Source: Gammaproteobacteria bacterium (GTDB taxonomy: Bacteria; Pseudomonadota; Gammaproteobacteria; GCF-002020875). From it: 37,607 nucleotides of DNA. The stretch is from contig DUYW01000013.1 in the NCBI GenBank assembly GCA_013349825.1, forward strand, positions 1-37,607. Reading direction: 5' to 3'. Shown one piece after another: positions 31,721-37,093 of this stretch; positions within the stretch are counted from its first letter, which is position 1; every line of letters starts with the position of its first letter. The notes below the pieces were generated by a model that did no database searches, had not been told where the DNA came from, and saw only the letters and a program-made list of their open reading frames with translations. A program made the translations under genes and the position numbers.

Positions 31721-32039
31721 GTCAAATCTCGATTCAGTCGTTAAAGAAATTAAGCGGTCAGAAAAGAGCATTCATCTGATCCATCCGCTCACAGCAAACG
31801 GCGTATTCTAGTACAGCAATCCAGAAAGAGCTATCTGCTCCACACCGTTTTATTTAAGAAGTCCAGCATCCCGATGAGAATCATCCATCCTATAAGGCTC
31901 TTTGGTGTAGCTATATGTAGTTGCAGTCTCTCATGTATTGCGTATGATTAAGCAAAAACAGGTAACCTCTCCATAATGCTTTCGATCTCAGTCAGAGTTG
32001 ATTATGGTGGGGATTGGTAAAGTCGATGGGAGGAAAGAC
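31721..32039. other. Divergent intergenic region between tig and the cytochrome cluster
   Basis: About 319 nt with no gene recognised. It must hold the leftward tig promoter and the rightward promoter of the cytochrome cluster; only the candidate at 31921-31948 stood out. Confidence 0.5.
31921..31948 (+). promoter_or_regulatory. Candidate promoter of the cytochrome cluster
   Basis: TTGCAG (31921-31926), a 16-bp spacer and TATGAT (31943-31948), about 90 nt before the cytochrome start. The match is moderate and no operator was recognised. Confidence 0.35.
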
Positions 32040-32708
32040 ATGCTAAAAAACCTTATACTACTGGTGCTTTCAACACTATTTTCTTCTGTTTCACTCAGTT
32101 GGGACGGTTTCGATTATGGCGGCGACATTACTGAAGCCATGGAACTGACCCCAGACATCGAACATGGTAAAAAACTCTATCAGACATGTGCGCACTGCCA
32201 TACAGAAACCGGGTGGGGAATGGCACCGGGCATTGGCAATTTCCGCTCCACCGCCACCTACCCACAAATTGCCGGCCAACACCAGCCTGTACTGATCAAA
32301 CAGTTATTAGATATACGTAATCTCAATCGTGATAACCCTTCAATGTATCCTTTCTCAACTGAAAAATACTTAGGTGGTGCGCAAAATATTGCGGATGTAA
32401 CCGGTTACATCACCTCCATGCCAACCAACAACAGCAATCAAAATGGCGATGGCAGGAACCTGGAACATGGAAAGTCACTCTACACAACCAATTGCTCCAA
32501 GTGTCATGGCGAAAACGGCGAAGGTGATTCTGAAAACTTTTATCCCAAACTTGCACACCAACACTATGAATATATGCTGCGACAATTCATCTGGATCAAA
32601 GATGGCAAGCGCAGAAATGCCAACCCAAAGATGGTCAAACAGATCCAGGGGTTCAAATTCAGTGATATAAAGGCTGTCATTGATTATGCATCCCGGTTAG
32701 GTAAATAG
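32040..32708 (+). CDS. Periplasmic diheme cytochrome c
   Basis: 222 residues with a signal peptide (MLKNLILLVLSTLFSSVSLS) and two heme c sites, CAHCH (50-54) and CSKCH (152-156). Each lies in a class-I cytochrome-like half (PQIAGQH, YPKLAHQHYEYMLRQ), so the architecture is that of cytochrome c4-type diheme proteins. The ATG at 32040 has a GGGAGG ribosome site; the longer reading from 31998 lacks one. It probably accepts electrons from the NapC-like or Fcc proteins encoded next and passes them to a terminal oxidase. Confidence 0.9.
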   Translation: MLKNLILLVLSTLFSSVSLSWDGFDYGGDITEAMELTPDIEHGKKLYQTCAHCHTETGWGMAPGIGNFRSTATYPQIAGQHQPVLIKQLLDIRNLNRDNPSMYPFSTEKYLGGAQNIADVTGYITSMPTNNSNQNGDGRNLEHGKSLYTTNCSKCHGENGEGDSENFYPKLAHQHYEYMLRQFIWIKDGKRRNANPKMVKQIQGFKFSDIKAVIDYASRLGK

Positions 32709-32769: not shown

Positions 32770-33483
32770 ATGAACAAATTGATCATTCCGATTCTTATCT
32801 TTTTGGCAGGTGCTGCAGCACTGGGCGGCACCAATGTCTTCTTTGCTGCAACCAATGAAATGGAGTTTTGTACCTCTTGTCACTCCATGAAGATCAATTT
32901 AGAAGAGTACCGACACACCGTTCATTACAACAATCAGTCTGGTGTACAGGCAACCTGCTCCGACTGTCATGTCCCCAAGCAGTTTATCCCCAAAATAAAA
33001 GCCAAAATCATGGCCGCCAAAGATGTCTACCATTGGGTTCTGGGAACCATTGAACCCGATGAACTCCACTTGGTCAGCACAGAGGAGAATGGTAGCTGTC
33101 CCGATCTCTACATACCGGTCAAGGAGGGCTCAGACCTATGTGTCCCGAACTATGGTGAGCCATACTCAGACGATATGAGTGAAGAAGCTAACACACGCAG
33201 AGAAGCCGCTCTGAAAAAATTCAATGCCTACCGTTGGAAGATGGCAAACAGTGTCTGGGACAAGATGAAGGCCAGCGACTCCAGAGAGTGCCGTAACTGC
33301 CATAGTTTTGAAAATATGGATTTAGACTCACAAGACCGCAGCGCCAGAAAAAAACATGGACGAGCCACTGAAAAAGGTCAAACCTGTATAGATTGCCACA
33401 AGGGAATTGCCCATAGTGAGCCGGACGAACCCGAAGATGAGGATGAAGAGGTAGATGATGATGCCAACACAGATGCATCTTGA
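32770..33483 (+). CDS. NapC/NirT-family tetraheme cytochrome c
   Basis: 237 residues with an N-terminal anchor (LIIPILIFLAGAAALGG) and four CxxCH sites at 34-38, 63-67, 174-178 and 206-210. MKASDSRECRNCHSFENMDL is a family signature. Between hemes 2 and 3 there is a long segment (about 93-160) with an extra cysteine pair (C110, C124) not usual in NapC. The C-terminus is an acidic tail (EPDEPEDEDEEVDDD). NapC proteins pass electrons between quinol and periplasmic partners. It lies 61 nt after the diheme cytochrome and before the ankyrin gene. Confidence 0.88.
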   Translation: MNKLIIPILIFLAGAAALGGTNVFFAATNEMEFCTSCHSMKINLEEYRHTVHYNNQSGVQATCSDCHVPKQFIPKIKAKIMAAKDVYHWVLGTIEPDELHLVSTEENGSCPDLYIPVKEGSDLCVPNYGEPYSDDMSEEANTRREAALKKFNAYRWKMANSVWDKMKASDSRECRNCHSFENMDLDSQDRSARKKHGRATEKGQTCIDCHKGIAHSEPDEPEDEDEEVDDDANTDAS

Positions 33484-33499
33484 TGGGGGAAACAAAATT

Positions 33500-34462
33500 A
33501 TGACTAGTACTATAAAAAACCTGATAACAGCTATTGGCACCCTGTTAATACTGACTACTTCTGCACTCTGCCAGGCCTCACCTGATCTTGACCTTTCACT
33601 GTTAAAGGCCGTTCTTAACGGCGATTACAGTGAAAGCGAGCGTCTGATCAACTTAGGCGCTGACATCAATACAACCGGAAAATTGGGGCATACTCCACTG
33701 ATCTATGCCGCAGAAGATAACCAGTTACCTATTGCACAGCTTCTGCTGGACCATGGCGCGCGTATTAACATGCAGACTGAAGGTGGATATACCGCACTCT
33801 CAGCAGCGGCTGATGAAGGCAACATGCCCCTTGTATCACTACTCTTGAAATCAGGTGCTGACTCACACATCAAAACGCGTAACGGGCTTGATGCCATGAT
33901 GATAGCAATTCGCAGCGGTGAAGCCGATGTGATCTCCATATTGATGGCCTATAACAGCAATTTCAATACTGCTGACCGGCACGGCAACACCGCTCTGATG
34001 ACTGCTGTAGCACAAAGCAACATTGACGTAATCCATATGCTGCTGCTCGCAGATGCCGGCATTAACGTCAGAGACAACAAGGGAAAAACAGCCTTGATGA
34101 TCGCAACACAGCGTCAAGATTTCGAGGTTATCAAGATCCTGTTAAAACGAGGTGCATCAACCAATATATCAGATGACAATGGTGCCACAGCTCTCCATTA
34201 TGCCGTGACCCAAGACAGTGTTGGCATCCCTCTTATCCTGATAGAGCACAATGCCAAGCTCGACGCTACGGACCGTGATGGCTGGACTCCACTCATGGAA
34301 GCCGCAAGCCGTGGTAACTCCACCCTTGTTAAATTACTCATTAAACATGGTGCCAACCTTCAGCTAACCGATCATGAAGGGTTATCCATACCTCAAATTG
34401 CTGAAATTCACCGACACAAATCCTTAGGTACCCTACTTAGGGAAATAATGAGAAAACAGTAA
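33500..34462 (+). CDS. Exported ankyrin-repeat protein of the redox cluster
   Basis: 320 residues from the ATG at 33500, which gives a signal peptide (NLITAIGTLLILTTSALCQA). The longer reading overlaps the NapC stop and has no signal start. About eight ankyrin repeats fill the rest (TPLIYAAEDNQLPIAQLLLD, TALSAAADEGNMPLVSLLLK, TALMTAVAQSNIDVIHMLLL, TPLMEAASRGNSTLVKLLIK). It likely binds or protects other periplasmic proteins; its position between cytochromes and fccAB points to them as partners. This is inference, by analogy with periplasmic ankyrin proteins next to catalase genes. Confidence 0.85.
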   Translation: MTSTIKNLITAIGTLLILTTSALCQASPDLDLSLLKAVLNGDYSESERLINLGADINTTGKLGHTPLIYAAEDNQLPIAQLLLDHGARINMQTEGGYTALSAAADEGNMPLVSLLLKSGADSHIKTRNGLDAMMIAIRSGEADVISILMAYNSNFNTADRHGNTALMTAVAQSNIDVIHMLLLADAGINVRDNKGKTALMIATQRQDFEVIKILLKRGASTNISDDNGATALHYAVTQDSVGIPLILIEHNAKLDATDRDGWTPLMEAASRGNSTLVKLLIKHGANLQLTDHEGLSIPQIAEIHRHKSLGTLLREIMRKQ

Positions 34463-34700: not shown

Positions 34701-35303
34701 ATGAAAGTAACGAAACTTGCCATGGCCATTATCGGTGGTTGCGCAATCAGTTTCTCTGCAGTATCTGCAGGAGACAACATGACTGGAGCTGATGCTAGCA
34801 TGCTCTCTAACACCTGTGCCGGCTGTCATGGCACTGATGGTGCTAGTGTTGGACCAGCCATCCCATCCATTGGCGGAATGTCTGCCACCTATATCACTGA
34901 CATAATGAATGCCTACAAGTCTGGCGACACCAAAAGCACCATTATGGGGCGCATTGCAAAAGGCTACAGTGAAGATGAAATCGCAATGATGGCGGGATAC
35001 TACGCCAGTCAGGAACAGTCACGCGCTGACCAATCTTTTGATAACGCTAAAGTGGCCAAGGGCGCGAAGCTGCATGATAAGTACTGTGAAAAGTGCCATT
35101 CTGAAAGTGGAGCCCTTGCAGATGATGACTCCGGCATCCTTGCTGGTCAGCTGATGCCATATCTCCACTACAGCATGGAGGACTTCAGTAACGGTGATCG
35201 TTCTATGCCAAAGAAGATGAAGAAAAAAGTTAAGAAACTGCATAAAAAAGAAGGTGATGCAGGTATTGATGCCATCATCAACTACTATGCTAGTCAGCGC
35301 TAA
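34701..35303 (+). CDS. fccA: Flavocytochrome c sulfide dehydrogenase, cytochrome subunit
   Basis: 200 residues with a signal peptide (cleavage near VSA-G, 23/24) and two heme c motifs, CAGCH (39-43) and CEKCH (129-133). It has GPAIPSIGGM and LAGQLMPYLHYSMEDFSNGD in the two halves. Size and heme number match the diheme FccA of Allochromatium. The C-terminal region is Lys-rich (KKMKKKVKKLHKKEG). A strong ribosome site AGGAGG precedes the ATG. It ends 15 nt before fccB. The 238 nt upstream is AT-rich and may hold its own promoter. Confidence 0.9.
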   Translation: MKVTKLAMAIIGGCAISFSAVSAGDNMTGADASMLSNTCAGCHGTDGASVGPAIPSIGGMSATYITDIMNAYKSGDTKSTIMGRIAKGYSEDEIAMMAGYYASQEQSRADQSFDNAKVAKGAKLHDKYCEKCHSESGALADDDSGILAGQLMPYLHYSMEDFSNGDRSMPKKMKKKVKKLHKKEGDAGIDAIINYYASQR

Positions 35304-35318
35304 GGAGGAGCAAATAGA

Positions 35319-36647
35319 ATGAGTAAATTCAATCGTAGAGATTTTATGAAGGTATCGGGCGGCGCACTGGGCGCAGCTTCTGTAGCTACAGGTCTGGGAG
35401 TTGCCAGTAGCGCCTTTGCTGGTGCCAAAGGGCGTGTTGTTGTTGTCGGTGGTGGTTTGGGTGGCGCAACCTGTGCCAAATACATCAAACGTGCCGATGC
35501 TGCCATTGATGTAACCATCATTGAACCCAACAAGACCTACTATACTGGTTTCACCAGTAACCTGACGATCACAGGCATGGTTACTATGGACCAGCTGGCC
35601 CACACCTATGAAGGTTTGGCTGCAATGGGAATCAACATTGTTCACGACAACGTAACCGAAATTGGCGATAACAGCGTCAAGACAGCCGGTGGTGGCAACT
35701 ATGCATTTGACCGCTGCGTTGTCTCACCAGGTGTTGATTTCAAATATGTTGAAGGTCACAGTGAAGAAGTTGCCAACCAATCGGTTACACATGCTTACAA
35801 GTCCGGTCATCAGATGACCCTTCTTGCCAAGCAAATTCACTCCATGAAGGATGGTGGAACTGTCGTTGTTGCTGCACCGCGCAACCCATTCCGCTGCCCT
35901 CCCGGACCTTATGAGCGCGTCAGCCAGATTGCGGCTTACCTCAAGGTCAACAAGCCTAAATCAAAGATTATTGTTCTGGATCCAAAGGATAAGTTCTCTA
36001 AATTTGGCCTGTTCCGTGAGGCATGGAAGATTCATTACGGCTTTGATGGATCACAAGATGGTGGTGACAACTCAATGATAAGCTGGGTGAAAGGTGCTGC
36101 AGGTGGTGCAATTGAAGCCGTTGAAGCTGGCAGCAACACAGCAGTCTGCTCTATCGAAGAGTTCAAGGGTGATGTACTGAATGTCATTCCAGACATGAAG
36201 GCGGGCCAAGTTGCCATCAACAACGGTTTAACCGATGGTGACTGGTGTCCAGTTGACCTGCAGACTTTTGAATCCAAAAAACGTGCAAACATCTACGTTA
36301 TTGGTGACTCTAGTGCCGCTAAGGGTCTACCTAAGTCTGGCTATGCTGCCAGCTCTGAAGCCAAGATCTGTGCTGCCAGCATTGTTGCCGCACTTAATGG
36401 TAAGGGCGCACCAATTCCAGCATACACCAACACCTGCTACAGCGTAGTTGCACCTAATGATGCATTCTCTGTAGCGGCGGTCTATCAGCTTGCTGCTGAC
36501 AAGTCCAAGGTGATGAAGGTCTCCGGTGGTCTTACACCAAGTGGTGACAAGCGCAATGCTGCCCACCGCGTACGTGAAGTTCAGTATGCTCTGAGCTGGT
36601 ATGACAACATTACTTCTGACGCATTTAACGATGCCAAGAAACTGTAA
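35319..36647 (+). CDS. fccB: Flavocytochrome c sulfide dehydrogenase, flavoprotein subunit (variant)
   Basis: 442 residues. A Tat signal (NRRDFMKVSGGALGAASVA) directs the folded protein to the periplasm. FAD-binding GGGLGG (44-49), RCPPGPYERVSQIAAYL (C193) and NTCYSVVAP (C373) match FccB, and C193/C373 correspond to its redox-active disulfide. The position of the cysteine that holds FAD covalently in Allochromatium (YYTCYLSN) reads YYTGFTSN here, with Gly77. FAD may therefore be bound non-covalently. A TAAGGAGG ribosome site couples it to fccA. It oxidises sulfide and passes electrons to FccA hemes. Confidence 0.9.
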   Translation: MSKFNRRDFMKVSGGALGAASVATGLGVASSAFAGAKGRVVVVGGGLGGATCAKYIKRADAAIDVTIIEPNKTYYTGFTSNLTITGMVTMDQLAHTYEGLAAMGINIVHDNVTEIGDNSVKTAGGGNYAFDRCVVSPGVDFKYVEGHSEEVANQSVTHAYKSGHQMTLLAKQIHSMKDGGTVVVAAPRNPFRCPPGPYERVSQIAAYLKVNKPKSKIIVLDPKDKFSKFGLFREAWKIHYGFDGSQDGGDNSMISWVKGAAGGAIEAVEAGSNTAVCSIEEFKGDVLNVIPDMKAGQVAINNGLTDGDWCPVDLQTFESKKRANIYVIGDSSAAKGLPKSGYAASSEAKICAASIVAALNGKGAPIPAYTNTCYSVVAPNDAFSVAAVYQLAADKSKVMKVSGGLTPSGDKRNAAHRVREVQYALSWYDNITSDAFNDAKKL

Positions 36648-36745: not shown

Positions 36746-37093
36746 ATGAAAATAACATCTCTAGTACTAGGTACTTTCTTGCTCTACAGCAGTGCATCAT
36801 TTGCATCTAATGCTCAGCTACTCAACGAACGTCTGAATCAACTCGAGCAACGCATTGATAAACTGGAACAAACGTTCCAGAGCAACCAGCGTAAAGGACT
36901 CTGGAAAGAATCCATCCTATGGCAGCGAATCAAGATAGAGATGTCAGAGTACGAAGTGAAACAGTTAATCGGTAACCCCAACCGCATAGAACAGCGGATC
37001 TTTTCCTCCTGGTACTACCACCCTACCTCTAAATTACACAGCTATATCTGGTTTGACGAAGGCAAAGTTCTGGGTTGGAAAGGCCCGGAATAG
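36746..37093 (+). CDS. Small exported protein with coiled-coil and BamE/SmpA-like domain
   Basis: 115 residues. A signal peptide (MKITSLVLGTFLLYSSASFA) is followed by a short coiled-coil (LLNERLNQLEQRIDKLEQTF, about 25-44) and a C-terminal BamE/SmpA-like region. That region includes SEYEVKQLIGNPNRIEQ, SSWYYHP and YIWFDEGKVLGWKGP. The usual lipobox Cys is absent, so it is not a lipoprotein. It begins about 40 nt after the fccB terminator and is separately expressed. Family call is moderate, coding is well supported. Confidence 0.7.
   Translation: MKITSLVLGTFLLYSSASFASNAQLLNERLNQLEQRIDKLEQTFQSNQRKGLWKESILWQRIKIEMSEYEVKQLIGNPNRIEQRIFSSWYYHPTSKLHSYIWFDEGKVLGWKGPE

Follow-up and report, generated by a model that had tools for sequence, protein, structure and literature searches.

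An FCSD flavoprotein subunit with glycine at the FAD-linking cysteine site, kept together with a cysteine-bearing paralogue in a gammaproteobacterial genus

Flavocytochrome c sulfide dehydrogenase (FCSD) has been described with FAD bound to a conserved cysteine (available sections of PMC12010331), and roles are given for Cys42, Cys161, Cys337 and a conserved active-site Glu in the Allochromatium vinosum flavoprotein FccB (available sections of PMC3504083 and PMC12010331). Sulfide:quinone oxidoreductases (SQRs) hold FAD non-covalently or, in some cases, through a different cysteine, as on Cys121 of a type VI SQR (accessible part of PMC9666304). For complex II, the accessible part of PMC9557727 states that covalent attachment of FAD raises the potential and accompanies succinate oxidation, that relatives whose FAD is non-covalent carry out fumarate reduction only, and that the non-covalent flavin lies about 90–150 mV lower. 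Here we describe a variant of FCSD, a known enzyme, that is without the flavin-anchoring cysteine; this variant is what is new. We found no report of an FccB without this cysteine in the literature, parts of which were accessible; subscription papers might contain one.

The window, by which we mean the whole stretch of DNA analysed (37,607 nucleotides), carries the following features around fccB.

31998–32708, forward strand: diheme c-type cytochrome, c4-like, a conserved neighbour
32770–33483, forward strand: cytochrome of the NapC/NirT type, a quinone-linked family, with four CxxCH motifs, a conserved neighbour
33455–34462, forward strand: ankyrin-repeat protein, a conserved neighbour
34701–35303, forward strand: fccA, diheme cytochrome c subunit, 200 aa, two CxxCH motifs
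35319–36647, forward strand: fccB of the Gly type, FCSD flavoprotein subunit, 442 aa, with the Tat leader NRRDFMK
35547–35549, forward strand: Gly77 codon GGT, where Allochromatium FccB has its FAD-linking Cys42
35787–35816, forward strand: residues 157–166, THAYKSGHQM, equal to segment 125–134 of 1fcd (from column conservation)
35895–35897, forward strand: Cys193 codon TGC, equal to Cys161 of 1fcd, catalytic disulfide by alignment
36435–36437, forward strand: Cys373 codon TGC, equal to Cys337 of 1fcd, catalytic disulfide by alignment

The fccB reading frame is intact and starts about 16 bp past the end of fccA; its product begins with a twin-arginine leader and contains the dinucleotide motif GGGLGG. 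The product aligns over its full length with PDB 1fcd chain A (E 8e-118), 3vrd_B and 5n1t_A, and matches Pfam PF21706 (FCSD_central, 141 bits, cut-off 27) and PF09242 (FCSD-flav_bind, 80 bits, cut-off 26). Its AlphaFold model (mean pLDDT 93, pTM 0.89) superposes on 3vrd_B with Z 59.5 and an rmsd of 1.1 Å over 392 residues and on 1fcd_A with Z 57.2; across 3vrd, 5n1t and 1fcd the range is Z 57–60 and 1.1–1.3 Å. SQRs share the overall fold of the model (Z about 33–37) but differ from the window FccB in being membrane-bound, in having a quinone as acceptor and in lacking an FccA. With the domains, the fold, the cysteine pair and Glu, and an adjacent FccA all present, the sequence identifies the frame as an FccB of the broad family with predicted activity.

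In a pairwise alignment YYTG of the window FccB falls under YYTC of 1fcd. In a 244-row alignment Gly77 stands in the Cys42 column, Cys193 in that of Cys161, Cys373 in that of Cys337 and Glu199 in that of Glu167, which we take to be the A. vinosum number of the conserved active-site Glu. The codons for Gly77, Cys193 and Cys373 were read directly from the DNA as GGT, TGC and TGC. The initial annotation had reported the motif YYTGFTSN, which is exact, together with absence of the FAD-linking cysteine and retention of both disulfide cysteines, which also hold; glycine occupies the position in all six orthologues. The electron-path residues toward FccA (Tyr306, Thr336 and Trp391 in 1fcd) are unchanged in the window FccB, and both disulfide cysteines, Glu199, Tyr342, Thr372 and Trp427 are invariant in the alignment of the six Gly-type copies. 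The window system thus resembles Allochromatium FccAB in fold, disulfide, Glu and diheme partner, but Gly77 at the Cys42 site means that it is not filed as a covalent-FAD (Allochromatium-type) FCSD.

The same genome encodes a second FccB on another contig (G000:C15:27201-28499, locus L002). It lies behind its own fccA, keeps the cysteine (YHSCFMSN) and is 64% identical to the window copy, which answers the proposal in the initial annotation to look for a second, Cys-bearing fccAB. Exactly two FccB matches were found in each of the six genomes examined of the family, which are also all those examined of the order and belong to one genus. All six have a Gly-type copy (YYTGFTSN, in one genome YFTGFTSN) and all six a Cys-type copy; the codons at position 42 are GGT or GGC in the former and TGC or TGT in the latter, one transversion apart. 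The Cys-type protein has the same disulfide and Glu but sits at a different locus. Judged by eye, its FccA carries a lipoprotein-like leader (VGC or AGC), unlike the Gly-type FccA, whose leader is of the soluble type.

In a 64-row IQ-TREE phylogeny, computed without the trait column and its neighbouring columns and with bootstraps not fully settled, the 12 FccBs of the genus form one clade (100/100). Within it the Gly-type clade (100/100, stem 0.33) and the Cys-type clade (100/97, stem 0.14) are sisters, and a 244-row FastTree agrees. This sister relationship indicates a lineage-specific duplication of fccAB followed by a change from Cys to Gly in one copy. dN/dS is 0.044–0.117 among Gly-type copies (15 pairs) and 0.022–0.087 among Cys-type copies (13 of 15 pairs computable); the values are rough because dS is high, at 0.92 to 3.06 and largely near saturation for the Gly type. 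The Gly copy is under purifying selection. Such conservation means that the Gly-type protein is used, and does not tell which substrate it oxidizes.

The cysteine site is not the only place changed. Outside the genus, 85 columns have a conservation of at least 90% across 210 Cys-type FccBs. All six Gly copies depart from seven of these (C42, D81, Y97, P125, W128, A130 and T134), and all six Cys copies from one (Y97). Five of the seven are C42 and positions in segment 125–134, where every Gly-type copy differs from 1fcd by P125T, W128Y, A130S and T134M, in columns conserved elsewhere. W128Y also occurs in 11 of 216 Cys-type rows and is absent from the other non-Cys lineages, in which no convergent second-site change was seen at the 20 columns compared. 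The segment roughly matches a stretch where an SQR-like protein has a cysteine, and which we take to hold the FAD-attaching cysteine of SQRs (accessible part of PMC9666304). By this analogy, the Cys42 site and the segment may both lie along one edge of the flavin. The changes in the segment could point to another substrate or an altered direction instead of simply accommodating the loss of the bond.

Our preferred reading, with a probability of about 0.72, is that the window gene encodes a working FccB from a duplicated fccAB that holds FAD non-covalently, likely at lower potential, giving two dehydrogenases with different ranges. After the duplication in this gammaproteobacterial lineage, one copy would have kept the cysteine and the other lost it along with the changes in a second stretch close to the flavin pocket. 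FAD would be held by the Rossmann motif without an 8-alpha-S-cysteinyl thioether, and the Gly-type FccB would be exported by the Tat path with its flavin aboard and pair with the diheme FccA encoded just upstream. Sulfide would attack the Cys193–Cys373 disulfide, and electrons would pass from FAD through conserved aromatic residues to the FccA hemes. The Gly-type flavin would be dissociable and have a lower midpoint potential; since the non-covalent flavin of complex II is the lower one, the potential of the window FccB is probably lowered as well. A cell whose supply of sulfide and acceptor varies would be well served by two FCSDs that differ in potential or affinity. The initial annotation had offered non-covalent FAD with a changed redox potential or, alternatively, another sulfur substrate. 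This is partly supported: the cysteine loss is real and conserved, non-covalent FAD is the best inference and a lowered potential is probable by the complex II analogy, but another substrate lacks direct support because none of the disulfide cysteines, the Glu or the electron-path residues has changed.

It is quite unlikely that the Gly copy instead runs chiefly backwards or acts on polysulfide, with electrons running from the quinone pool through NapC-type and diheme cytochromes to a low-potential FAD while the Cys copy oxidizes sulfide. Such a role has a precedent in complex II, where relatives holding FAD non-covalently are confined to reducing fumarate (accessible part of PMC9557727), and it would fit the excess of changed conserved columns in the Gly copies (seven of 85, against one in the Cys paralogue). 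It also draws on the neighbourhood: the NapC/NirT cytochrome lies beside Gly-type fccAB in six of six genomes and the c4-like gene in five of six, the contig of the remaining genome (G004) beginning just upstream of the NapC gene. However, NapC-type genes also stand beside Cys-type fccAB in other families (for example at L018, L023, L024, L032, L033, L034, L038 and L039), and we rejected a NapC neighbour as diagnostic of Gly-type copies. The genus, moreover, has an oxidizer's gene set: dsrA is matched in six of six genomes (over the cut-off in five) and soxB in three of six, so it looks like a sulfur oxidizer. The sox genes that follow the Gly-type locus in G002 and G003 likewise suit oxidation.

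In favour of the preferred reading, fccA adjoins Gly-type fccB in all six genomes of the genus. The order NapC–ankyrin–fccA–fccB recurs around Cys-type fccAB of other families (L277, L275 and L186). The Gly copy therefore probably stayed in place as the original-locus copy, with the Cys copy elsewhere. At the Cys-type locus an ArsR-type regulator adjoins in four of six genomes and an SQR-like gene in three of six, with redoxin-like genes near in some. One such SQR-like protein (L003:11522-12661, reverse strand) has only Cys127 and Cys338 and resembles the Cys121/Cys332 pattern of a type VI SQR (accessible part of PMC9666304). Several families have a NapC/NirT cytochrome next to fccAB, in some cases with an ankyrin-repeat protein, which may connect FCSD with the quinone pool. 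Downstream of the window fccB, a small protein with a secretion-like leader (36746–37093, forward strand) follows fccB in three of six genomes and had no Pfam or NCBIfam match. The broken frames at the contig end (37110–37607, reverse strand) look by eye like the remains of insertion-sequence transposase genes.

A further alternative, that FAD is still covalently bound in the Gly copy through some other residue, we regard as very unlikely. Attachment sites do differ in the wider family, the FAD of a type VI SQR being on Cys121 (accessible part of PMC9666304). Yet just three cysteines, C133, C193 and C373, are invariant among the six Gly copies, and 1fcd has each of them. C133 is thus also present in an enzyme whose flavin is on Cys42, and C193 and C373 together form the disulfide. 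The other cysteines vary (C52 in four of six copies, C277 in three, C351 in four, and C310 as well), and no new cysteine is fixed in the six copies. Window residues of about 157–160, the SQR attachment region in a loose alignment with one SQR-like protein, contain no cysteine, and the non-Cys lineages outside the genus have no newly acquired Cys, His or Tyr in common at columns 40–49. A compensating new cysteine was rejected on these grounds. The initial annotation had also asked about a cysteine at another flavin-attachment site; none has been gained at the known FCSD position or, as far as the loose alignment shows, at the SQR one. This points to non-covalent FAD as the best reading of the sequence, and the window FccB likely holds its FAD in this way.

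It is highly improbable that the Gly copy has degenerated or serves as a structural subunit without catalysis. The longer stem of the Gly clade (0.33 versus 0.14 for its Cys sister) would suit degeneration, but all six reading frames are intact, dN/dS is low, the catalytic residues are kept and the partner gene is adjacent in all six genomes; intact frames and low dN/dS also rule out a pseudogene. A sequencing or assembly error at the Gly77 codon has a negligible chance even in a draft genome of 274 contigs, being refuted by glycine in six genomes with two synonymous codons (GGT or GGC).

The cysteine loss behind the preferred reading of a working FccB with non-covalent FAD is recurrent and not unique to the genus. 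Across 243 distinct full-length FccBs (1fcd row excluded, five rows shorter than 330 aa dropped, identical rows counted once), the Cys42 column holds Cys in 216, Gly in 23, Pro in three and His in one. These rows mix the class draw, part of the phylum draw matches (29 new loci and 40 regions) and 28 loci from a pattern scan, and in so mixed and biased a sample 27 non-Cys rows in 243 are not a population frequency. L041 and L042, whose FccBs are those of L006 and L007 with equal scores, add nothing to the count. In the class draw alone, with the genus excluded, six of 138 full-length copies from 104 genomes are without the cysteine; 112 genomes matched, of which four are in the genus, and four of the other 108 gave no row (apparently G030, G057, G228 and G305, the last with a short match). 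Non-Cys copies occur in 4 of 25 genomes with multiple fccB genes versus 2 of 79 with a single copy, a weak association (Fisher p 0.029, genus excluded, kinship uncorrected). Both disulfide cysteines are kept in 241 of 243 FccBs, against 216 for Cys42, making the disulfide the more constant feature of the family. The cysteine of the covalent bond is common but dispensable in FccB evolution.

The non-Cys rows comprise the Gly clade of the genus (6), a group of 14 from families f215 and f211 of another class (motif YYSGPLSN), and L017, L159, L179, L156, L175, L183 and L067. The Cys42 column changed at least 11 times on the 244-row FastTree and at least eight times on the 64-row IQ-TREE, counts that do not separate gain from loss. 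Since Gly and Cys are interleaved in the f215/f211 group, regain of the cysteine is possible. L017, the only FccB match in genome G222 of the same class, has Gly at the same position as the window and adjoining c4-like, ankyrin and multiheme/b-type cytochrome genes. Its change is independent of that in the window's group, as the closest FccBs, L016 and L019, carry Cys; a single clade of L017 and the window's group was rejected (p-AU 7e-5). Two other loci depart from the pattern differently. L179 (G175:C2) has Gly at position 42 and a cysteine three residues on (VTGPFCN), which might attach the flavin there. L149 (G201:C36, reverse strand), the only full-length FccB row from its genome, keeps Cys42 and has lost both disulfide cysteines (FRAPPAP and VSIYS); a NapC-type gene is its neighbour.

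The genus thus offers a natural pair in one cell, with and without the FAD-linking cysteine, in addition to several independent losses elsewhere. Comparing the paralogues would make the role of the covalent bond in FCSD directly testable, and FccB annotation should not demand this cysteine. An unlikely but broader idea is that loss of the covalent bond is a recurrent switch in FCSD and that the genus gained by duplication a matched pair of enzymes, one covalent and of high potential, the other non-covalent and of low potential, the latter quinone-linked through NapC-type and diheme cytochromes and possibly a periplasmic polysulfide reductase.

Two further observations concern the surrounding sulfur and cytochrome genes. 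In the window's genome a 13.2-kb stretch with dsrA occurs twice at 99.99% identity and in opposite orientation (contigs C33 and C35, loci L269 and L270), either a duplication or an assembly artefact; a third full-length dsrA on C95 (L271) had no nucleotide match to this stretch at the cut-off used. A protein at L258:6117-8084 (reverse strand) has nine CxxCH motifs fused to a membrane part resembling formate dehydrogenase gamma, and its relatives lie upstream of fccAB in many gammaproteobacteria, including several of loci L043–L061.
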